This document shows, piece by piece, positions 1 through 10,092 of a stretch of DNA of 64,000 bases. Each line of letters begins with the position of its first letter. The stretch's first letter is position 1. The notes under the pieces are model-generated. The model searched no databases and had not been told where the DNA came from. It saw nothing but the letters and a program-made list of their open reading frames with translations. Both the position numbers and the translations under genes were made by a program. Source of the DNA: Sporolactobacillus sp. Y61 (GTDB lineage Bacteria; Bacillota; Bacilli; Bacillales; Sporolactobacillaceae); assembly GCF_040529185.1 (NCBI RefSeq), contig NZ_CP159510.1, forward strand, positions 186,001-250,000, in the 5' to 3' direction.

Positions 1-1
1 G

Positions 2-892
2 ATCCAGACGATCATTATCAAGCATAAAACTCCTTTTCTGCTTTATCATAATCTGGGGGAATTAAAAAACCTGTCAGCTGAAGCCTCTTTTTTTTATGTT
101 GGTCTTTTCCGGTTGCTCAGAGAAATTTCTCTCCCGCTTCGCTCCTCGAATCCCACTTGGATTAAAAGGCCAAAATTGGGTGAGCGGAAAATCAGTATAA
201 GTGACAATAGCATACTTGAGATTTTCCAAGATCAGGTAGAAGAGCTCATTGAGTTACTTCATCAGGAACAGAACATAAATGGACCGCGACAAGTTCGATT
301 AGATATCGCCATGTCTGAAAATCTTCCACTTGAAGACAAATCGGTCAATGCCATTGTAACCTCCCCACCTTATTGCACGAGAATCGACTATGCTGTATTA
401 ACCAGTCTTGAACTTGGTCTCCTGGGGTGTAGTCAGAAGGAAATGAAACATCTTCGTCAAAACTTCATGGGCACTCCTGTGATCAGTAAAACAAAGCCCG
501 TCGTGAGTCAAAAGTGGGGACAAGGCTGTCTGAAGATTATAGACGCAATTGGAAATCACGAATCTAAAGCGTCGCAGACGTATTATTTAAGAACATATCT
601 TCAATATTTTGATTCGCTGAACCATTCTTTGAGAGAACTGAATCGCGTTCTGAAAAATGATGGTCAGTGTGTGCTTGTGGTCCAGAATTCATATTACAAG
701 AATGTTTATATCAATCTGGCTGAAATTATTAAGGATATGACTGAACCTTTCCACTGGGAAATCGTTCAGATATTTGACTATTTATCACCTCAAAATATGC
801 TTCAGATTAATTCAAAAAGCAAAAAATACAGGGTGGACGGAAAAGAAAAAGAATTTGTACTTTTTTTCAAAAAGGAGGGATCCGATGACTAA
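2..892 (+). CDS. DNA methyltransferase (5'-truncated by window edge)
   Basis: The frame is open from base 2, so the gene starts outside the window; 296 residues are visible. A TSPPY motif at visible residue 120 is the catalytic motif IV of amino-methylating (N4-cytosine or N6-adenine) DNA methyltransferases. The C-terminal part (an LNRVLKNDG stretch, then VLVVQNSYY) fits the late strands of the Rossmann methylase fold. The reading frame ends in TAA overlapping the next start codon by 8 bases, so it is translationally coupled to the DUF262 gene. The three-gene cassette is visibly more AT-rich than the rest of the window, suggesting transfer. Whether the methylase belongs to a restriction system cannot be settled without the missing N-terminus and upstream genes. 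Target sequence unknown. Confidence 0.8.
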   Translation: MQTIIIKHKTPFLLYHNLGELKNLSAEASFFYVGLFRLLREISLPLRSSNPTWIKRPKLGERKISISDNSILEIFQDQVEELIELLHQEQNINGPRQVRLDIAMSENLPLEDKSVNAIVTSPPYCTRIDYAVLTSLELGLLGCSQKEMKHLRQNFMGTPVISKTKPVVSQKWGQGCLKIIDAIGNHESKASQTYYLRTYLQYFDSLNHSLRELNRVLKNDGQCVLVVQNSYYKNVYINLAEIIKDMTEPFHWEIVQIFDYLSPQNMLQINSKSKKYRVDGKEKEFVLFFKKEGSDD

Positions 893-2030
893 TCGTGGAA
901 AATCAGCACCAGTTGAACTAATTGAAAAAGTTGACTCAAAAATTGAAATGGTAAGAACTCGAAGCCTTGACCTTTCTTTTAACGAACTACTGGATATGTA
1001 CCAAAGCGAGGAATTAGAGATTGCTCCGGAATATCAAAGGTTATTTAGATGGTCAGAAGAAAAGCAGTCTCAATTTATTGAATCACTCATTCTTGAAATG
1101 CCGATACCCCCAATATATGTTATTGAAACCGAGGAAGGCGTTTATGAACTGATTGACGGCTTACAGCGTATTTCCTCCTATCTGCATTTTCGCGGTGCTC
1201 TGAAAGATTCTGATTTTTTACGTCTGATTGACTGTGATATTGTTACCGAATTGAATGGTTACACGTATGACGAACTGCCAAAGGCCTTACAAATCAAATT
1301 AAAAAGAAACTTTATCCGGGTAGAAGTTATTAGAAAAGGCAGCGATCAGCGCCTTCGTTACTATATGTTTAAACGGCTCAATACTGGCGGGGAGTTGCTG
1401 AGTGAACAGGAATTAAGAAATTGTACCATTCGTTTATTGGATGAAAGGTTCAATGATTTCATTATTGAATTGAGCCGGAATAAAGATTTCAAGGCCTGTA
1501 TGACGCACCTTTCGGCCCAAAATTTTAATTTGAAAATTGATCAGGAATATGTGTTAAAGTTTTTTGCTTTTAAAAATGATCGGGAACATTATCAAAAAAA
1601 CATTGCCTCTTTTGTCACTTCATACATGGAAGGTGTTTCTTACTCTCCTGGCGAAGAGGAACACATTCCTTTTGATTATCAGAAAGAGAAAGCTATCTTT
1701 AACAAGACATTTGCTGTTCTTCATTCATCTCTTGGAGAATATGCTTTTGCCCGTGTTAACAATCATGGAAACTGGGTGTCCTCTGTTTCGCCGACCCATT
1801 TTGATGCGATAACACTTGGTATTCAGCCGTACATTGAGGAACTAAACGCAGAAGACCCCCGGCAAATGGGGCATCTCAATCAATTGTTGAAACAGATCAA
1901 ACAGAACTCTGACTTTTTGAACGCAACTCTTGGCGGCGGTAAAAATACCAGAAGTTATCTTGAACAGCGCATTAAACTCGTGGAGGAGAGAGTTGGTGAG
2001 TGGCTTCGTGGATCAGGAAAAACTTCTTGA
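885..2030 (+). CDS. DUF262 (GmrSD-N/ParB-like) domain protein
   Basis: 381 residues. ATG at 885 is chosen because AAAGGAGGG lies just upstream; the frame is open further upstream but only as a shadow of the methylase. The N-terminal half holds the DUF262 signature: a YQR-x-FRW motif near residue 52 and DGLQR near residue 90, the ParB/sulfiredoxin-like NTPase core seen in GmrS, SspE and related defence proteins. The C-terminal half is alpha-helical and lacks a recognisable HNH (DUF1524) nuclease, so unlike GmrSD it has no obvious nuclease of its own. It overlaps the methylase stop and is overlapped by the HEPN gene, so all three are likely co-translated. By family, DUF262 proteins hydrolyse NTP and license a partner nuclease on modified or foreign DNA; that role here is inference. 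Confidence 0.85.
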   Translation: MTNRGKSAPVELIEKVDSKIEMVRTRSLDLSFNELLDMYQSEELEIAPEYQRLFRWSEEKQSQFIESLILEMPIPPIYVIETEEGVYELIDGLQRISSYLHFRGALKDSDFLRLIDCDIVTELNGYTYDELPKALQIKLKRNFIRVEVIRKGSDQRLRYYMFKRLNTGGELLSEQELRNCTIRLLDERFNDFIIELSRNKDFKACMTHLSAQNFNLKIDQEYVLKFFAFKNDREHYQKNIASFVTSYMEGVSYSPGEEEHIPFDYQKEKAIFNKTFAVLHSSLGEYAFARVNNHGNWVSSVSPTHFDAITLGIQPYIEELNAEDPRQMGHLNQLLKQIKQNSDFLNATLGGGKNTRSYLEQRIKLVEERVGEWLRGSGKTS

Positions 2031-2718
2031 TAAAAGGGCACAGCTGGAAGAGGAACTGACTTGGAGAGCTGATGAAATTCGACTGCTGCGAAATCAACTC
2101 TCATATATTGAATTCGAGAAAGATCAGAATCGTTTTCGCAAAGCATTACTTGTTATGCTTTATTCTCACTACGAAGGATTTTGTTCGATAGCTTTTCAGA
2201 TATATATTGCCGCTATTAATGAGGAACATCTAAAACGAAGCGAGGTCAATCATTTTCTCGCTGCTTCATCTATGATTGAAGCATTTGATGCTTATGAGGA
2301 TGATAACATCAAACCCCGGCACTATAAAAAAATTTTTAAGAAGACATTACCTGATAAAAACAATCTGCAGAAATTCGCCCGACAGATCGACTTTGTCGAC
2401 AGTTTCTCTGACTTATGGACGCAGAACGTATATATTCCGGATGATATCGTCGATACAGAATCTAATCTTTGGCCGATTGTGCTGAAAAAGCTTCTTTATC
2501 GACTTGGACTGCCCTGTAATTATTTTGAGGATCAGGAGTGTTATATTCATGAATTGGTAAATCGCAGAAACGGAATTGCCCATGGACGGGATAAGGAAGG
2601 GATTACGGCAGATATATATAACCACATTGAGAAGTCTACATTTTCAATTATGGAACGTGTGATTAACTTGATCATTGATGCATTGAAGAAAGGAATTTAC
2701 CTCGTTCCTTCTTCTTAA
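1996..2718 (+). CDS. HEPN-like nuclease candidate (MAE_28990/MAE_18760 type)
   Basis: 240 residues from GTG 1996, which has GGAGGAG at 1982-1988; the gene overlaps the DUF262 gene by 35 bases. A long N-terminal helical (coiled-coil) segment precedes a domain ending in an NRRNGIAHG motif near residue 190, the R-x4-H signature of HEPN RNases (Arg and His catalytic). The arrangement matches the MAE_28990/MAE_18760 HEPN family, which is typically found next to DUF262 genes. Likely an RNA- or nucleic-acid-cleaving effector held in check by, or acting with, its neighbours (inference). No signal peptide or membrane segment is seen. Confidence 0.7.
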   Translation: MSGFVDQEKLLDKRAQLEEELTWRADEIRLLRNQLSYIEFEKDQNRFRKALLVMLYSHYEGFCSIAFQIYIAAINEEHLKRSEVNHFLAASSMIEAFDAYEDDNIKPRHYKKIFKKTLPDKNNLQKFARQIDFVDSFSDLWTQNVYIPDDIVDTESNLWPIVLKKLLYRLGLPCNYFEDQECYIHELVNRRNGIAHGRDKEGITADIYNHIEKSTFSIMERVINLIIDALKKGIYLVPSS

Positions 2719-2837
2719 CCTCTCCGGTTTGTATTTTTTTATAAAGGTTGCTAACTTAGAAAACCTGGCTTTTTAATGCCAGGATGATTCAGTGCCCTGG
2801 ACGATCATATATTCTATGATATATAGTTATTAGGACA

Positions 2838-2990
2838 AAAACCAGTTCTTAAAAATATGGTGCTACTAAAACTGGCTCGGAATGAGCTATGGTAAGTAGC
2901 AGTAATCTCTACTTAGCCTGTCTAAGCCAGTTAGCAATGCTCTCAGAACCCCGGTACTTAAGTGCCCATGTAGACAGACATTTTCCGGCA
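2838..2990 (+). ncRNA. Structured element resembling a TnpB omega-RNA / IS605 right end, no tnpB
   Basis: No gene is visible in 2719-3064. Visible pairings: AACTGGCT (2870-2877) with AGCCAGTT (2925-2932), enclosing TAAGTAG/CTACTTA (2893-2899, 2909-2915). CTGTCTA (2918-2924) pairs with TAGACAG (2971-2977) and crosses the first helix, making a pseudoknot. A hairpin GGTAC-TTAA-GTGCC lies at 2953-2966, after CTCTCAGAACCCC. The order CTGTCTAAGCCA, TTAGCAATGCTCTCAGAA, then a terminal hairpin is what I recall from right ends of TnpB-only IS200/IS605 elements, where the guide RNA scaffold overlaps the element end. No tnpA or tnpB is present. The family assignment is from memory and tentative; strand assumed. 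Confidence 0.35.
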
Positions 2991-3010
2991 TTTTCAACAT
3001 CTTATATATA

Positions 3011-3046
3011 AAGGCGCTGCACCGGTATTCCGGGCAGCGCCTTTTC
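3011..3046. terminator. Hairpin terminator between convergent genes
   Basis: AAGGCGCTGC and GCAGCGCCTT form a 10-bp stem followed by TTTT on the plus strand and AAAA before it, so it can act in both directions. It sits between the HEPN cassette/structured element and the convergent L-2-hydroxyacid dehydrogenase gene, whose stop is at 3065. Confidence 0.75.
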
Positions 3047-3064
3047 CATTACTGTGCAGGCTAA

Positions 3065-4045
3065 TTATTTTTCAGCTGTCTCTTCGTAATCGGTCAGGGT
3101 CTGATCAATGTGGTCCCTGATCAGTTTCGCTGAAGCATTGAATGATTTGGTCTCTCTTTCGTTCAGGTGAAAATGAAGGATTTCTTCCACACCGTTTCCG
3201 CCAAGCACAATCGGAACACCGATAGAGACATGATGCTGCCCGTACTCCCCTTCCAGAATAACCGAAGCAGGCGTAATCGTATGGGCCTGATTCAGAATCG
3301 TTTTAGCAAAGAAAGCGAGCTGGTTGCCGATACCAAACTGTGTATTGCCTTTGCGCTTATGAATCTCCCAGCCAAAGTGACGGGCGGCGTCTTCAATCTT
3401 ATCACGGTCAAGTTTCCCAAACCTGGCCCTGTTTTCAGCCTCATAATCATCGATGGACTGGCCGCCAATCCGGGCGTGCGACCAGGCGGCAAACTGTGAG
3501 TCTCCGTGTTCGCCCAGCATGTAGGCACTGATGCTGCGCGGATCGATGTCGCCGACTGCTTTGGAAATCTGCCTGCGCAGCCTCATACTGTCAAGTGCCG
3601 TGCCGGTTCCGATTACATGGTTCTTTGGCAGTCCGGACAGATGATAGAATAAATAGGTAATAATATCACACGGATTGGTTGCAACGACATAAAAACCGTT
3701 GAATCCGGCCTGACGAAGTTTCGGCACGATATCATAGGCAATAGCCGAGGTGCCCTTCAGAAGTTTAAGCCGCGAACTGGTCGCGATCAGCGACCTGTCT
3801 GTTACAGTAACCAGAATGACATCACATGGCACCAGACCCTCAAGGGGCACTTCATAAACCCGCGTACGCGAAGGGTTGGTTTCAATGCTGTCCGCAAAGT
3901 CCCACGCTTCGCCTTTAGCCCGCTCACTGTCAATATCAGAAATGTAAAGTTCGTCCGCCACATTTTCATGAAGAATGGCTGTAGCTGCCGCTTTCCCTAC
4001 ATTTCCAATTCCGACTATACCGATTTTTCTGACTGTATGACTCAT
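3065..4045 (-). CDS. L-2-hydroxyisocaproate/L-lactate dehydrogenase family protein
   Basis: 326 residues, NAD-dependent 2-ketoacid reductase of the LDH/MDH superfamily. GIVGIGNVG at residues 9-17 is the NAD-binding Rossmann motif; R155 (in ALDSMR) and H180 (in GEHGDS) are the substrate-binding arginine and catalytic histidine. The stretch around residues 115-190 closely resembles the L-2-hydroxyisocaproate dehydrogenase of Weissella confusa. The mobile substrate loop reads DRSLIATSSR instead of the LDH QKPGETR, arguing for bulkier 2-ketoacids rather than pyruvate. Likely role: NAD+ regeneration by reducing branched-chain or other 2-ketoacids. It is monocistronic with its own promoter (4103-4131) and terminator (3011-3046). 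Confidence 0.85.
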   Translation of the reverse strand: MSHTVRKIGIVGIGNVGKAAATAILHENVADELYISDIDSERAKGEAWDFADSIETNPSRTRVYEVPLEGLVPCDVILVTVTDRSLIATSSRLKLLKGTSAIAYDIVPKLRQAGFNGFYVVATNPCDIITYLFYHLSGLPKNHVIGTGTALDSMRLRRQISKAVGDIDPRSISAYMLGEHGDSQFAAWSHARIGGQSIDDYEAENRARFGKLDRDKIEDAARHFGWEIHKRKGNTQFGIGNQLAFFAKTILNQAHTITPASVILEGEYGQHHVSIGVPIVLGGNGVEEILHFHLNERETKSFNASAKLIRDHIDQTLTDYEETAEK

Positions 4046-4102
4046 GAGTAACCCTCTCCTTTTTCTGATCGTCTATCCTTTTTTTCTGTGTTGTGTGACG
4101 TT

Positions 4103-4131
4103 ATTTTACACCTTGCGTTATCTGGTATCAA
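4103..4131 (-). promoter_or_regulatory. Sigma-A-like promoter of the L-2-hydroxyacid dehydrogenase
   Basis: On the minus strand TTGATA (4126-4131) and TAAAAT (4103-4108) are 17 bases apart. A partly symmetric GTGT...ACAC stretch overlaps the -10 region and weakly resembles a Rex half-site pair; I do not call it an operator. Confidence 0.65.
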
Positions 4132-4146
4132 GACGCCTCCGGGTAA

Positions 4147-4180
4147 AGAAAAAAACAGAGCCGGATTTCTCATGCTCTGC
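4147..4180 (-). terminator. Terminator of the cysH-siroheme operon
   Basis: On the minus strand CAGAGC...GCTCTG is followed by a run of seven T. It lies 25 bases past the last siroheme gene, so it ends the transcript started at the SAM riboswitch near 11.3 kb. Confidence 0.75.
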
Positions 4181-4204
4181 TTTGAATAAAAAACCGCTGT
4201 TTCA

Positions 4205-4840
4205 TTAAAATGTTCCGTCAGTCAGACAGACTCTGATGAATCCATCGACATCCGCAAGCAGCTCTGCCTGCCGTTCAGGCTGACGAAAAGCCGGATCCAT
4301 CATTTTTTGGAAACACTTCTTTTTACTTTCCGGATCGTGCAGTTTTTCCCTGATCTTGCGGCGTGCCTGGAACAGAAACTCAAGCCAGGTTTCCGTATCT
4401 TCAGGAAGCTGATCAGAAAGACTGTTGCGGATTTGCCGCGCAAGACCGGGACTCGCCCCGCCTGTTGAAACAGAAAGAGTGAGCCGGCCTCGACGCAGAA
4501 CCGCCGGCAGGATAAAGTCCCCCTGTTCATAATCACCGGCGATATGTACCAGCTGATTTGGCCCTACCTGTCCGGCAATCTCAGTATTCAGTTCCGCATC
4601 ATCCGTCGCTGCAAAAGTCAGGAAAGCACCTCTGGCATCGCCTTCCTGCCACGCTCTCCGTAACCATTTGATCTGCCCGGCAGCCGCCCATTTTTCAAGC
4701 TCCGCTGATTTCCGCGGACTGATCACCGTCACAAATGCGCCCCCGCTCAGGAGCGCCTGTATTTTCAAAGCGGCCGCCCGTCCGCCTCCGGCAACAACCG
4801 CTTTTCTCCCTTTCATGTCAAGCATAATGGGGAGGTACAT
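4205..4840 (-). CDS. sirC: Precorrin-2 dehydrogenase / sirohydrochlorin-processing protein
   Basis: 211 residues. Oxidises precorrin-2 to sirohydrochlorin with NAD+ in siroheme synthesis (Met8p/CysG N-domain family). The N-terminus MYLPIMLDMKGRKAVVAGGG gives the Rossmann GGG-x-AA-x-K motif, followed by the family hallmark SxGGASPGLARQIR near residue 128. It overlaps the upstream sirB by 23 bases and is the last gene of the sulfite-reduction operon. Since a separate SirB-type chelatase is present, this protein probably serves only the dehydrogenase step. The N-terminal-only length (about 200 aa) matches Bacillus YlnF. Confidence 0.85.
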   Translation of the reverse strand: MYLPIMLDMKGRKAVVAGGGRAAALKIQALLSGGAFVTVISPRKSAELEKWAAAGQIKWLRRAWQEGDARGAFLTFAATDDAELNTEIAGQVGPNQLVHIAGDYEQGDFILPAVLRRGRLTLSVSTGGASPGLARQIRNSLSDQLPEDTETWLEFLFQARRKIREKLHDPESKKKCFQKMMDPAFRQPERQAELLADVDGFIRVCLTDGTF

Positions 4841-5567
4841 CCTGCAGCGACTCCCTGATGCGTTTTTTCATTAACTGAATCAGAGCCGGATGATAACCGA
4901 GCGGACGGCACAGAACAAACGCTGCCCCGGCTTCATTCTTTTCGCGAACAGATCTGCTGATCGTTTTCATCAGCACACCGGTAAACAGCAGGTAGGGGAT
5001 GACAAATGTCTGTCCCCGTTTTTCCCGGACCACCCGCTCAAGACCCTCCTGAAAAGAGGGCGATGCGGCTGCCATGTAGCAGACGATGACGGACGGGATA
5101 CCTTTATTCAGCAGCAGTCGCCGGATTGCGGCAAAATCACGTTTTGTATCCGGATCACTTGATCCGCGGCCGACCAGCAGAATAGCGTAGCGTTCCGGAA
5201 GATTCTGCTGTTTTTCATGCAGGCGCTCAATTAACAGATGGATAATGATATCATCCACCCCGAACGGACGGCCACAGATAAAATGCACATGGCGATACTT
5301 CTTTCTGGCCTTATCAATTTCCCCGGGAATATCCCGCTTCGCGTGTCCCGCCGTCAGGAGCAGCAGCGGCTGAACAAGAAGTGTACGCACTCCGGCTGCC
5401 ACACATCGACGGATCCCCTCCTGAATATTAGGCCGAACCAGTTCAAGATAACAGACTTTTTGAATCGGTACATGAACCTGCAGCATGCATTTCTGTAAAA
5501 AATGGTTGGCCTGATGGAGTCCTTCTTTGACTCGGGTTCCGTGGCTGACATAAAGCACGCCCAGCAT
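4818..5567 (-). CDS. sirB: Sirohydrochlorin ferrochelatase (SirB/CbiX family)
   Basis: 249 residues. Inserts Fe2+ into sirohydrochlorin to give siroheme, the cofactor of the sulfite reductase in this operon. MLGVLYVSHGTR carries the metal-binding histidine of the CbiX fold (residue 9), and a second half-domain begins near residue 126 (YAILLVGRGSSDPD), giving the two-domain SirB architecture. In the second half the usual H is replaced by R in VGRGSSDP, normal for the degenerate half. The start directly abuts the stop of the uroporphyrinogen methyltransferase gene, so translational coupling is likely. A cobalt chelatase role (CbiX) is possible from sequence alone, but the context favours iron. 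Confidence 0.85.
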   Translation of the reverse strand: MLGVLYVSHGTRVKEGLHQANHFLQKCMLQVHVPIQKVCYLELVRPNIQEGIRRCVAAGVRTLLVQPLLLLTAGHAKRDIPGEIDKARKKYRHVHFICGRPFGVDDIIIHLLIERLHEKQQNLPERYAILLVGRGSSDPDTKRDFAAIRRLLLNKGIPSVIVCYMAAASPSFQEGLERVVREKRGQTFVIPYLLFTGVLMKTISRSVREKNEAGAAFVLCRPLGYHPALIQLMKKRIRESLQDVPPHYA

Positions 5568-6344
5568 CTAGTACGCCTCCCTTGCCGTATTGACCGAGGG
5601 ACGGACAGCCTCAAACCATTTTAATGTCTCCCTGAGCCGGACCACTTCGCCGACAATGATCATGGCCGGATTCAGCAGGTGCCGTCTTCCTGCTTCCTCA
5701 GATGCCTCTTTCAATGACGTGGTGATCGTCCGCTGATGATCGGTTGTACCCCATTCAATCAGTGCAACCGGCGTTGCGGGCTGACGGCCGTGTGCTATCA
5801 GCTCCGCAGTGATATGGGCGAGGCTGCTGACGCCCATATAAATCGCCAGCGTATCCACACTTGTCGCCAGTTTCGACCAGTCAACCGTCTCTTTCCCACC
5901 TTTTTTCGCATGACCGGTCACAAACGCGATCGAACTGGAATAATCACGGTGAGTGACCGGGATACCGGCATAAGCCGGCGCGGCGATCCCTGCTGTGACG
6001 CCGGGAACAATTTCAAACGGGATACCTGCCTTGGCAAGAAAGGCCGCCTCCTCACCGCCACGACCGAAAACAAACGGATCACCGCCCTTCAGGCGTACCA
6101 CTCTTTTTTTCTTTCTGGCCTGATTCACAAGCAGATGATTAATCGCTTCCTGTTTCAGCGGATGCGCATGAGGCAGTTTCCCGCAGTAAATCCGTTCCGC
6201 CGACGGCCTGGCTTCATCAAGCAGTTCCTCGTTCACCAGCCGGTCATAGAGGATCACATCTGCAGATCGAATCAGATGCAGCCCTTTCACGGTGATCAGT
6301 TCCGGATCACCCGGACCGGCACCGACTAGATAGACTTTGCCCAT
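5568..6344 (-). CDS. cobA: Uroporphyrinogen-III C-methyltransferase
   Basis: 258 residues. SAM-dependent methylation of uroporphyrinogen III at C2 and C7 to precorrin-2, first step to siroheme. MGKVYLVGAGPGDPELIT is the diagnostic N-terminal SAM-binding signature; YDRLVNEELL, the LKGGDPFVFGRGGEEA motif near residue 84 and the VPGVTAGIAAPAYAGIPVTHR block near residue 118 are all intact. Length matches the single-domain SUMT enzymes, not the CysG fusion. Its placement between DUF3906 and sirB in the cysH operon marks it for siroheme rather than cobalamin; no other cob genes are near. Confidence 0.9.
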   Translation of the reverse strand: MGKVYLVGAGPGDPELITVKGLHLIRSADVILYDRLVNEELLDEARPSAERIYCGKLPHAHPLKQEAINHLLVNQARKKKRVVRLKGGDPFVFGRGGEEAAFLAKAGIPFEIVPGVTAGIAAPAYAGIPVTHRDYSSSIAFVTGHAKKGGKETVDWSKLATSVDTLAIYMGVSSLAHITAELIAHGRQPATPVALIEWGTTDHQRTITTSLKEASEEAGRRHLLNPAMIIVGEVVRLRETLKWFEAVRPSVNTAREAY

Positions 6345-6358
6345 CAGCTATGCCCCTT

Positions 6359-6577
6359 TCATTCAAATGATTTTCTCTTATGCAGAACAAATCCGGCGCC
6401 GTTTTTCAGAATTCTTTTCTTTTCCACGAGTGCAATATCATCCACACGAATTTTTTTCAGAAAGGTTCGATCCAGCTCCCGGTCAACAATCCTGAATGCC
6501 GATTCTTCATTTTCCGCAACAGCGACCACCGGGATTTCCTGCTCTTCGGAGGTGACGATAAAACGATATAATTCCAT
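6359..6577 (-). CDS. DUF3906 family small protein
   Basis: 72 residues, cytoplasmic, no cysteine, no membrane segment. The pattern MELYRF...V...AENEESAF...VDxELxRxFLKK...DIALxEKKRI..GAGFVL matches what I recall of the DUF3906 family of Bacilli (function unknown). It lies 7 bases downstream of the sulfite reductase stop and 14 bases upstream of cobA in a SAM-riboswitch-controlled operon. That location suggests a helper role in sulfite reduction or siroheme delivery (inference only). Confidence 0.65.
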   Translation of the reverse strand: MELYRFIVTSEEQEIPVVAVAENEESAFRIVDRELDRTFLKKIRVDDIALVEKKRILKNGAGFVLHKRKSFE

Positions 6578-6584
6578 AGTTTTT

Positions 6585-8216
6585 TCACCCGGCTTCCTCT
6601 GAATGGCCCGCCATAATTTTATTGAGCAGATGCTGAAGAAAATCGGTCCCCACGCGATTTTTAAAAGAGAAAAACGACTCGCCTTTTCCCTTATGCTCCT
6701 TAAAATAGACCAGAAAATCCTTCAGTACAGCGGGAAGCAGATAATCGGGTATCCGCCCTTTAAGCCGTTCATTAAAATGACCCGTCCCTTTCAGCGACCC
6801 GCCGACAAACAGTTCATAAGCATCGACCAGCTGTTTATCCTTCGTGCGCAGTTTGAGTCCCTGGATACCGATATCGGCAATCTGTCGCTGGCCGCAGGAA
6901 TTCGTGCAGCCAACCATGTTTATACGCACCAGTACATCGATATCAATTTCTCTGTCCAGAAATTGAGCGATTTCCCGCATCCGGTCTTTTGTATTGGTCA
7001 GGGCAAGGTTACAGAACTCATTCCCCGTGCAGGCCACAGCATAGCCCATAAAGTGGGAGGGATGAATCGGAAACTTTTTGAAAAGATCATCGGCAAGCAA
7101 TTGATCCGTTTTTTCATTCGGTATATTAGGCAGAATCAGATTCTGAGAGTTGGCTGTACGCAGCTCGCCTGTTCCATATGCTCCGGCCAGGCGGGCAAAG
7201 CTTCGGAAATCATCTGCTGAAAGGCGACCGACCGGCACGCTGACGCCGACATAACTCAGGCCGTTTTGTTTCTGAGGATGCACGCCGTAAAAATATCCGG
7301 CATTCCATCCTTTGGTCTCGTCATGGCCGGCCGGGGTCAGGGGTCCGGTTAACTCCAGAACTTTCTCCTCAAATTTCTTAATCCCCCAGTCGGCGATCAG
7401 ATACTTAAGCCGGGCCCGGGCACGGCTTTTCCGATAGCCAAAGTCTCGGTAAAGCCTGGTTACGGCATCAGCTACTTTGATCACCTCATCTGCCGTATGG
7501 ATAAAGACATTCAGCTTCTTAGCAAGATAGGGTCTGGCAGCAAGCCCGCCCCCGACCAGGACATGGAAACCGCTGACTTTTTTGCTGTCGATCACTTTAG
7601 TGGCCGGCATGAAGGCAAGGTCGTTGATCTGAGCCTGACCGACATTATATACATTCGAATTAATGGATATCTTGTACTTACGCGGGAGATTGGAAAAATC
7701 GGGATTATCCTGAAAGTAGTGGAAAACCCGGTCAACAATCGGACGCGTGTCAAAAAGTTCATCCGGATCAATGCCGGCGAGCGGGTTTCCAACAATATTA
7801 CGCGGCGCGTCGCCTTCCGCCTCACTTGTCGTCAGCCCGACTGCCTTCAGCCGGTCAAAGATTTCCGGAAGGTGCTCAAGCGGGATCCAGTGGTACTGGA
7901 TGGCCTGGCGGGTGGTCAGGTCCAGAAAGCCGCGCCCGAATTCATCACCAATGTCTGCCAGAACGATCGCCTGCTCGCTCCTCAGAACCCCGGACGGCAC
8001 CTTCACACGCATCATAAAAAGCCCTTTGTCCTGCGGTTTCTGTACAGTCAGTCCCGCAAATTTAAAATACATATATTGATCCCTGGGAATTGATTCGAAC
8101 CCGTTTTTTGCATATTTTGGAATATCGTCAAAGATCGACAGGCCGTCTTTTTTCAGCTTATTGATTTCATTTTTATTCAGTCTTTCATTCTGAGCCCAGA
8201 CTTTTTCATAAGCCAT
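6585..8216 (-). CDS. Ferredoxin-type sulfite (nitrite) reductase
   Basis: 543 residues, the single-subunit siroheme/[4Fe-4S] reductase (NirA/Sir type). It reduces sulfite to sulfide with six electrons from ferredoxin. The cluster/siroheme ligands are C-x5-C in CTGNEFC and C-x3-C in CTNSC, in the C-terminal half. Two ferrodoxin-like half-domains and two nitrite/sulfite reductase repeats fit the length. Sulfite rather than nitrite is inferred from the operon (cysH, sat, cysC, siroheme genes, SAM riboswitch). No CysJ flavoprotein is present; the ferredoxin at 10849-11091 is the likely electron donor. RBS AAAGGAGGA upstream of ATG 8216. Confidence 0.85.
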   Translation of the reverse strand: MAYEKVWAQNERLNKNEINKLKKDGLSIFDDIPKYAKNGFESIPRDQYMYFKFAGLTVQKPQDKGLFMMRVKVPSGVLRSEQAIVLADIGDEFGRGFLDLTTRQAIQYHWIPLEHLPEIFDRLKAVGLTTSEAEGDAPRNIVGNPLAGIDPDELFDTRPIVDRVFHYFQDNPDFSNLPRKYKISINSNVYNVGQAQINDLAFMPATKVIDSKKVSGFHVLVGGGLAARPYLAKKLNVFIHTADEVIKVADAVTRLYRDFGYRKSRARARLKYLIADWGIKKFEEKVLELTGPLTPAGHDETKGWNAGYFYGVHPQKQNGLSYVGVSVPVGRLSADDFRSFARLAGAYGTGELRTANSQNLILPNIPNEKTDQLLADDLFKKFPIHPSHFMGYAVACTGNEFCNLALTNTKDRMREIAQFLDREIDIDVLVRINMVGCTNSCGQRQIADIGIQGLKLRTKDKQLVDAYELFVGGSLKGTGHFNERLKGRIPDYLLPAVLKDFLVYFKEHKGKGESFFSFKNRVGTDFLQHLLNKIMAGHSEEAG

Positions 8217-8255
8217 TTTCGCAGGTTCCTCCTTTGCAACAGATCACGTGCCGGG

Positions 8256-8861
8256 TTACGCACCGATGATTTTGTTCTTTTCTAATAACGCAATCACACG
8301 GGCCGTGCTTTGATCGAGTGTCTCTTCTGAGGTATCGACAACCAGTTCCGGGGCCGGCGGTTCTTCGTAGGGGGAACTGATACCGGTAAAAGCTTCAATT
8401 TCCCCGTCACGTGCTTTTCGGTACAGTCCCTTGGGATCACGTGCTTCACAGACGTCAAGCGGACACTTGACATAAATTTCAAAAAATTCATCTTCGGGTA
8501 CTTTTTCGCGGGCGGCCCTGCGCTCGGAGGTAAACGGTGAGATAAAGGCAGTCAGAACAACGGCATTACTGTCGACAAAGAGGGCCGCAACTTCACTGAT
8601 TCTGCGAATGTTCTCCTTCCGGTCAGCATCAGTAAATCCGAGATCATGGTTCAGTCCGGACCGGATGTTGTCGCCATCCAGCAGATACGTCCGAATCCCC
8701 TTCTTAAACAGCTCAGCTTCGACACGATTGGCGAGCGTAGATTTGCCGGAGCCGGAAAGTCCGGTGAACCAGACCACTGCGCCACGATGTCCGCTCCTTG
8801 CTTCTCTGTCCGCCCGGGTCACCGTCGTTTTATGCCAGACAATATTCTCTGAACCTGCCAT
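8256..8861 (-). CDS. cysC: Adenylylsulfate (APS) kinase
   Basis: 201 residues. Phosphorylates APS to PAPS with ATP. Walker A GLSGSGKS at residues 34-41, the DGDNIR motif near residue 63 and FISPF near residue 107 are the family signatures. It lies 16 bases downstream of sat. The CysH here has the iron-sulfur cysteines typical of APS-using reductases, so PAPS may not be on the main assimilatory path and CysC could serve PAPS-dependent sulfation or a bifunctional CysH (inference). Confidence 0.92.
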   Translation of the reverse strand: MAGSENIVWHKTTVTRADREARSGHRGAVVWFTGLSGSGKSTLANRVEAELFKKGIRTYLLDGDNIRSGLNHDLGFTDADRKENIRRISEVAALFVDSNAVVLTAFISPFTSERRAAREKVPEDEFFEIYVKCPLDVCEARDPKGLYRKARDGEIEAFTGISSPYEEPPAPELVVDTSEETLDQSTARVIALLEKNKIIGA

Positions 8862-8877
8862 ATGCCATACACGCTCC

Positions 8878-10029
8878 TTATTTAGCCTGGCCGGCTTTTT
8901 CTTTCAGTCCGTCGATCAGCACCTGCACGACTTGCGGCCGGCTGAATGTTTCCGGCGGCCGGATGCCGTCGCGCAGCATCGCTCTGACTTTCGTTCCGGA
9001 CAAAGCCACATGATAGGAAGCATCGTGCGGGCAGGTTTTATTCGATGCCATACTGCCGCATTTCGTGCAGTAATAACTGTTTTCAAAGAACAGCGTCTGA
9101 ATGTCCAGCTCCTCACGTGTAAAATGAGAAAAAATTTTCTGTGCATCATAAGGACCATAGTAATCTTTGACGCCTGCATGATCTCTGCCGACGATAAAGT
9201 GGGTACATCCGAAGTTCTTACGGCAGATCGCGTGAAACACCGCTTCACGCGGACCGGCATAGCGCATGGCGGCCGGAAATACGGCAAGCGCCGTCCGTTC
9301 TTTAACATAATAGTTGTCTATCAGAACATGGTAGCTGCGCAGACGAATATCGGCCGGAATATCATCCTTCTTCGTCTCTCCTACCAGTGGATTGATGAAA
9401 AGGCCGTCCACCGTCTCAAGGGCAGTCTTCTGAATATATTCATGTGCCCGGTGAATCGGGTTCCGGGTCTGGAAACCGACGATCGTCTTCCACCCTTTCT
9501 GATCAAACAGCCGGCGTGTTTCCACGGGATCGAGAAAGTCCGCGGCGAAGGCCTGCGGGCGCGGTGAACGTCTCAGAAGCCGGACCGGGCCGGAAAGATA
9601 AACCGCTCCCCGATCGAACAACCGCTTTACGCCCGGATGCTCGCGGTCGGTTGTTCCATACACTTTCCGGGCTTCATTTTCCTTATCCGGGCGAAATTTA
9701 CCGGTGACCTCAAGTGTCCCATAGACCACGCCCTGATAGACCAGACGGGCTCTGTCTCCCGCCGACACCTGAGCGGCTGCCTCCTCACTGACCGGCAGGG
9801 TGACCGGAATGGTCCAGGCAAGACCCCTTTTCAGTCTCATTTCCTCGACCACAGATTCATAGTTTTCCTGATCGAGAAATCCGGTCAGTGGACTGTATGT
9901 GCCATTCGCAATCAGTTCGAGGTCGCTCAGAGCAACGCGATCTATCGGAATGATCTGAGCATAACCTGCACCCGTCTGACCGAAGCTCTGGCGGTTGATC
10001 AGGATACCGCCGTGCGGTTTACTTGTCAT
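8878..10029 (-). CDS. sat: Sulfate adenylyltransferase (ATP sulfurylase)
   Basis: 383 residues from ATG 10029, which has GGGAGGC 6 bases upstream; a start 5 codons earlier lacks this spacing. Makes APS and pyrophosphate from ATP and sulfate. The [11 protein letters not shown] motif near residue 195 (catalytic Arg and HxxH) and VGRDHAG near residue 290 are conserved. CTKCG plus the C in NKTCPH form the zinc-site-like cluster found in bacterial Sat. Second enzyme gene after cysH in the SAM-regulated operon. Confidence 0.93.
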
Positions 10030-10092
10030 AGAAAAGCCTCCCATACGCTATTTCATTGTTGATACCTTGCAGCCATGTTTCGCATCTTCTTC

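Follow-up and report, generated by a model that had tools for sequence, protein, structure and literature searches.

An acquired methyltransferase-DUF262-HEPN operon of Sporolactobacillus sp. Y61, probably a virus defence system

Genes and motifs of the cassette

The window studied here, a stretch of 64,000 nucleotides from the chromosome of Sporolactobacillus sp. Y61 (G000:C1:186001-250000), carries at its left edge a cassette of three overlapping genes on one strand, encoding in this order a DNA methyltransferase (438 aa), a DUF262 protein (381 aa) and a MAE_28990-type HEPN protein (240 aa). The first gene is cut by the window edge and its 3' two thirds occupy positions 1..892 (+ strand) as an open frame assigned by PF01555, PADLOC and alignment. 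The missing 5' end was recovered from the same chromosome (one contig, 3.22 Mb), where the whole gene spans L003:13576-14892 and its ATG, at L003:13576, precedes the first base of the window by 425 bases. The DUF262 gene (GmrSD_N, ParB/Srx-like; 885..2030, + strand) begins with ATG at 885 and was assigned by Pfam, PADLOC, model and alignment. The HEPN gene (MAE_28990/RiboL-PSP type; 1996..2718, + strand), encoding a predicted RNase effector, begins with GTG at 1996 and was assigned by Pfam, model and alignment. The overlaps of 8 bases (methyltransferase and DUF262) and 35 bases (DUF262 and HEPN) given in a preliminary description of this DNA were found again in the frames and the recovered 5' end. 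Purine-rich sites resembling ribosome-binding sites precede the second and third starts (aaaaggaggg for DUF262 and ggaggaga for HEPN).

The methyltransferase matched N6_N4_Mtase (PF01555) of Pfam with 54 bits and MTase_II of PADLOC with 115 bits, the latter over residues 23-401, which is nearly full length and places it among type II-like enzymes. The AdoMet motif DPWNGSG was identified at residues 54-60 and the catalytic SPPY at 263-266. Motif I thus lies some 200 residues ahead of SPPY, which we take to be an alpha-like order, and SPPY presumably indicates N4-cytosine or N6-adenine as the target. Residues D54, P55, W56, N57, G58 and G60 and the whole S263-P-P-Y are invariant in 56/56 aligned relatives, drawn from 120 listed of 3058.

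The DUF262 protein contains a single significant Pfam domain, GmrSD_N (PF03235; 91 bits, cut-off 33.2), and its C-terminal half is helical. The motif DGLQR lies at residues 91-95; D91-G-L-Q-R95 and N166-T-G-G are invariant among 65 aligned relatives (from 120 listed of 3227). Its best PADLOC match was NsnA (196 bits), which we take to be a Menshen gene name, and it also matched PD-T4-2_A (144 bits, E 1e-42). Neither HNH, DUF1524 nor any other nuclease domain was found in it with Pfam at an E-value of 1, and the DUF1524 HNH-type domain was equally missing, at the same threshold, from the other cassette proteins and from the neighbouring HAD-type protein.

The HEPN protein matched HEPN_MAE_28990 (PF18737; 113 bits, cut-off 26.8) and HEPN_RiboL-PSP (PF18735; 109 bits, cut-off 28.4), and no profile of PADLOC-DB 2.0.0 at an E-value of 1. 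Its Rx4H motif is R191-N-G-I-A-H196, where R191 and H196 are invariant in 120/120 aligned relatives (the best 120 of 260), as are E60 and G61. These Pfam matches agree with the protein kinds named beforehand: a TSPPY methyltransferase, a DUF262 protein without a visible HNH nuclease and an R-x4-H HEPN.

Linkage, inheritance and acquisition

Species genomes were scanned with the DUF262 alignment, giving 242 relatives, and the best 80 loci were examined, a methyltransferase being called above 150 bits. HEPN adjoins DUF262 in 77 of the 80. In the other three the contig ends soon after DUF262 (L076 and L081) or a different frame, presumably transposase-like, takes its place (L073). The methyltransferase was identified in 55 of the 80: in 54 it lies upstream of DUF262 and shares its strand, whereas in L026 it lies downstream on the opposite strand. 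The canonical order is complete in 51. These 55 loci span 14 named phyla, with one locus lacking a phylum assignment, and the three-gene block occurs in many bacterial phyla and some archaea.

Because the 80 loci had been picked by DUF262, each protein was also searched separately in 378 genomes of the phylum (E 1e-30 for the methyltransferase and DUF262, E 1e-6 for HEPN). The methyltransferase was identified in three genomes, always within the trio; HEPN in seven, always adjoining DUF262; and DUF262 in eleven, seven with HEPN by profile and an eighth (G539) with a divergent HEPN. Of the last three, G608 has an AAA/DUF3696 neighbour and is Menshen-like, G642 has a type I M-like neighbour (by eye), and in G416 nothing was recognised by eye beside DUF262. 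The three-gene linkage is real, and the conserved association on which the preliminary description depended is upheld.

Some loci present further elements. In L166:2283-7865 a full trio is immediately preceded by genes for a C5 cytosine methylase and a Vsr endonuclease. In L165:4008-7171 (G487) the methyltransferase and DUF262 look intact and the HEPN frame is disrupted. A DUF262-HEPN pair in L116:6974-12402 lies near a gene on the other strand whose product fuses an Eco57I-type methylase to a BsuBI/PstI restriction endonuclease.

The history of the two forms was followed in a quick tree of 115 DUF262 rows, 65 with and 50 without the methyltransferase; support is SH-aLRT only, no root was inferred, and the tree has some long branches and several open forks. 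Methyltransferase presence changes three times on this tree, against an average of 37 in 500 shuffles, none of which was as low. The outermost rows are from viral contigs without the methyltransferase, nearly all with an adjoining HEPN. A clade of 91 rows (support 99) contains every methyltransferase-bearing row, and nested in it is a clade of 25 rows (support 99) without the gene, mostly Lachnospiraceae and other Clostridia together with one viral contig and one Campylobacteraceae. The simplest reading of this pattern would be one capture and one later loss. Residues separating three-gene from two-gene DUF262 proteins were sought and only two positions exceeded 85% in both groups, too few to point to a specificity switch.

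Pairwise distances of the three proteins in 53 trios are correlated (0.65-0.71, shuffle maximum 0.21), and in the tree a Methanothrix copy groups with Bacillota and one from a cyanobacterium with Pseudomonadota; the trio therefore seems to move as a unit. DUF262 relatives were identified in 33 loci of viral contigs and HEPN relatives in 11. As read from the translations, one locus lies between terminase-like and portal-like frames (L096) and another among tail-type frames (L101). DUF262-HEPN pairs were also identified in a P2-like phage record and on plasmids, where 150 records matched DUF262, all below 60% identity.

This carriage on viral contigs, a phage and plasmids would suit a toxin-antitoxin-like guard, in which DUF262 would be the antitoxin of HEPN, the methyltransferase an accessory, and the unit would serve its own persistence as much as defence. 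The gene overlaps agree with this, as do the disrupted HEPN beside intact-looking partners in G487 and the replacement of HEPN in L073. We consider it very unlikely, since it leaves the co-inherited methyltransferase unexplained and the modelled DUF262 fold appears to be that of nucleotide-controlled DNA-binding or DNA-sensing proteins.

In Y61 the left neighbour of the cassette is a HAD-type phosphatase gene (Pfam), followed by ordinary chromosomal genes, and the right neighbour is an ldh-like gene on the opposite strand. The upstream genes include adenine-deaminase-like, pcrA (housekeeping helicase), ligA and gat genes, judged by eye from translations, the profile scan having been applied to HAD only. 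No BREX or DISARM gene (PglZ, BrxC-like ATPase, helicase or other core) and no restriction gene was seen among frames of at least 80 aa in the 13 kb upstream. On the reading of these 13 kb, the idea that the cassette is the tail of a larger system is rejected.

The cassette is a low-GC insertion and was acquired. Its G+C content is 39.2% against 48.6% for the window, as its description as AT-rich had implied, and HEPN is present in 1 of 58 kin-set genomes, the host's own. The ldh-like gene was identified in 13/13 same-genus genomes and lies 0.5 kb or less from HAD in 9 of them (HAD was not found in 3 of the 13 stretches); in L186 some 0.1 kb separates them, whereas in Y61 the distance is 3.7 kb. 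The methyltransferase matched none of the 13 fetched stretches, and the cassette is absent from all 13 genomes. In G008 (L185) they are 1.3 kb apart with a transporter-like frame between them, so that no defence hot spot is shown at this site. Acquisition, proposed in the preliminary description, thus stands on the flanking genes and the low G+C, and not on the mobile-element-like remnant that had been offered in its support. That candidate is rejected: the non-coding stretch between the cassette and the ldh-like gene (2719..3064, + strand; 346 bp) is single copy in the genome, its second match being a 35-base self-complementary stretch within the same segment, and no repeat or mobile-element signature and no direct repeats were found.

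The same distribution bears on a non-defence reading, a housekeeping or decayed gene block. Many copies neighbour ordinary genes, which would fit. The patchy distribution in the kin set, the cargo position in viral contigs and plasmids, the intact motifs in all aligned relatives and the validation of a related pair, PD-T4-2, make this reading highly improbable.

Two other regions of the chromosome may be recorded. To the right of the cassette, window positions 3065-10044 contain the opposite-strand ldh-like gene and then siroheme-synthesis-, sulfite-reductase-, APS-kinase- and sulfate-adenylyltransferase-like genes (from translations), an ordinary sulfate assimilation set. At L004:4440-9850 (G000:C1, about 449.4-454.8 kb) a second DUF262 protein (609 aa) adjoins a DUF499 ATPase of 1123 aa that carries a Swt1-type HEPN at its N-terminus; this locus resembles the Hma and BREX-related type 1 systems treated in PMC12839542, accompanied by a GmrSD-like gene.

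Proposed mechanism and its alternatives

The operon is probably a virus defence that marks the DNA of its own cell and destroys RNA when untagged DNA enters. The methyltransferase would mark a site in host DNA; the DUF262 protein, a putative ParB-like nucleotide-binding sensor related to BrxU and SspE, would survey DNA and be restrained where it finds the mark; phage DNA lacking the mark would make it change state and release or activate the HEPN RNase, which would cut RNA and stop the infected cell. The methyltransferase is most simply seen as providing a self-mark because it is conserved and co-inherited ahead of a DNA sensor and a toxin, and since no DNase is visible and the HEPN motif is invariant, unmarked DNA would be met with RNA cleavage. 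That the operon is a self-contained, horizontally mobile defence unit, restriction-modification-like with the RNase as its restriction limb, is given slightly less than an even chance on these comparisons.

A more specific version is held more tentatively. A nuclease-less GmrS-like NTPase would read DNA methylation while HEPN cuts RNA in trans, and a DUF262-HEPN pair would have captured the methyltransferase, switching from sensing modified to sensing unmodified DNA, with at least one reversal, in a lineage made up mostly of Clostridia. On the main reading too, the system would have been built by a methyltransferase joining a PD-T4-2-like pair.

DNA cleavage would be retained if the DUF262 protein itself nicked or cut DNA as part of a type II-like restriction system, with HEPN as a PrrC-like back-up killing the cell only when restriction fails. 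No type II endonuclease partner was recognised, and DUF262 itself weakly matches the PADLOC Type II REase profile (REase_II, PDLC03418; 44 bits). DNA nicking by ParB/Srx proteins is mentioned in PMC12839542, and a 2013 survey writes of a "ParB nuclease" and of restriction-linked HEPNs held in check (PMC3710099). Against this stand the lack of any nuclease domain detected at an E-value of 1 and the stricter retention of HEPN with DUF262 (77 of 80 loci) than of the methyltransferase (55 of 80), as would be expected of a main effector more than of a back-up. The DUF262 model aligns, loosely, to residues 1-419 of the 580 of BrxU and stops at residue 417-419, beyond which we take the BrxU nuclease to lie. 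The DUF262-nuclease explanation is considered unlikely.

Several observations weigh against the self-marking defence proposed above. The chief difficulty is the two-gene lineage: 25 of the 80 loci lack this methyltransferase, and for 24 of these a search of the rest of the genome gave no cognate copy, an absence that is not strict as several are drafts or metagenome-assembled genomes. Nine of the 24 gave weak local methyltransferase matches of 19-61 bits, against 360-431 bits in 4/4 three-gene controls. The pair can thus persist without the methyltransferase and self-marking is not obligatory; this lineage lives without the mark, and what it senses may be modified DNA, as with GmrSD, or another signal. 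The remaining exception (L038:2389-4987) presents, on one strand, DUF262-HEPN, a 257-aa protein without a Pfam match, which as a guess could be a restriction enzyme, and a different N6_N4 methyltransferase two genes after HEPN. Apparently another separate pairing with a different methyltransferase is that of Terrisporobacter phage TVCOM_ph1 (L143:3950-7376), where an Eco57I-type methyltransferase comes after DUF262-HEPN, about 1 kb from an integrase gene.

The structural comparison also weighs on this side. For the alignment to BrxU the rmsd is about 12, and the HEPN fold match is within the chance range for helical bundles, a designed filament ranking first. With Foldseek neither the DUF262 nor the HEPN model matched anything at E 0.001. 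Searched by sequence among solved structures, DUF262 had no relative at E 0.1, HEPN gave chance-level matches only and the methyltransferase gave partial motif matches. The cassette HEPN, moreover, has no match to PADLOC PD-T4-2_B at an E-value of 1.

Nor do the neighbouring genes show clear defence-island enrichment. Near neighbours (145/172) and far frames (91/108) of three-gene loci were taken by a longest-frame rule and compared with PADLOC at E 1e-10. Among the first 25 of 63 families of the near set, mad2 was identified in three members and PDC-S07 in two, with single cases of mad3, type I and type II methyltransferases, AbiEii, NsnA and other PDC models; Pfam added a few integrases and resolvases among ordinary genes. 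Among the first 25 of 101 families of the far set were a type I specificity subunit, mad5 and a type I methyltransferase. These figures count families and give no per-gene rate, so they cannot establish enrichment.

A further alternative is a type IV logic, where DUF262-HEPN would sense modified phage DNA and the methyltransferase would do something different, for instance label phage progeny in the fashion of Pgl or tune the sensor. That no cognate methyltransferase was found in any of the 24 two-gene genomes agrees with it, and PD-T4-2 acts on T4, whose DNA we take to be modified. The relatives BrxU, GmrSD and SspE also sense modified DNA (PMC10952713). If the mark made by the operon triggered its sensor, however, the host itself would be attacked, and the methyltransferase is kept across the 14 named phyla, which renders this logic quite unlikely.

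If the self-marking defence holds, it would be a case of a GmrSD-type sensor that has parted from its nuclease and acts through an RNase encoded separately, and the modification status of DNA would be able to control cell suicide by attack on RNA. Three-gene and two-gene lineages occur in nature as sisters, the same scaffold with and without the methyltransferase, which makes the switch from modified to unmodified sensing directly testable.

Comparison with known systems

The closest precedent is Table 1 of the 2013 survey of Anantharaman et al. (PMC3710099), where the MAE_28990 HEPN is entered as "in operon with a ParB nuclease and DNA methylase genes" and the RiboL-PSP HEPN in "operon with ParB". 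The first entry comprises the same three gene kinds and the same HEPN family (PF18737) and corresponds to the cassette, its "ParB" being presumably DUF262, to judge from the usage "ParB (DUF262)" in that survey. It is a single uncharacterised row, which describes neither distribution, evolution nor the missing nuclease. The survey also proposes a PrrC-like release, where restriction-linked HEPNs are restrained and freed once restriction-modification is neutralised. The remark of the preliminary description that it did not know the trio as a characterised system holds in that no characterisation was found, in a literature search lacking most subscription papers, preprints and supplements; the trio itself had already been listed.

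PD-T4-2, which we take to be a two-gene system without a methyltransferase (as its profile names A and B suggest), shares the DUF262 and HEPN core, and the cassette DUF262 matches PD-T4-2_A; it differs in that this protein scores higher for NsnA and that the cassette has a third gene, the methyltransferase, overlapping that of DUF262. PD-T4-2 protects both its native strain and E. coli K-12 from T4 (Vassallo et al. 2022; PMC9519451), and its components are given as DUF262 and a PF18735 HEPN (PMC10952713). Of the pairs examined, the nearest lies on a plasmid of E. coli (L142) and scored 18 bits for PD-T4-2_B. This profile was identified in 0/247 genomes of the order of G084 (Izhakiella) and in 1/14 control genomes, Bacteroides ihuae.

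Menshen likewise has a DUF262 protein without DUF1524, and its NsnA is the best match of ours, but the partner there is a predicted OLD nuclease (PMC10952713) and here HEPN. No OLD/AAA-type gene lies beside the cassette, whose neighbours are methyltransferase, HEPN, HAD and ldh-like; one locus with a Menshen look (L163) was seen elsewhere. GmrSD, BrxU, SspE and DndI form a further group of related systems; the first three carry a DUF1524 HNH-type nuclease, not detected in the cassette, which shares the DUF262 domain of GmrSD and BrxU.

PrrC-EcoprrI ties an RNase of the HEPN superfamily to restriction-modification, where the type I enzyme cuts DNA and PrrC is the guard; the cassette has no visible DNA-cutting subunit. 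In HEPN-MNT toxin-antitoxin pairs the partner is a nucleotidyltransferase, not DUF262. CoCoNuTs, McrBC relatives predicted to target RNA, resemble the cassette in having a restriction-type sensor without its DNase, encoded with HEPN or another nuclease (PMC11090510), although their sensor is a McrBC GTPase, filed under type IV, and ours is DUF262. DefensePredictor reports HEPN and methyltransferase systems (PMC13092281), which could not be resolved to this trio.

Defence surveys could miss or mislabel the cassette, since its HEPN is unmatched in PADLOC-DB 2.0.0 and the DUF262 models that match belong to other systems. In kind it is already known, from the 2013 table entry and from the core of PD-T4-2, and the cassette of Y61 represents a widespread and apparently uncharacterised three-gene variant.

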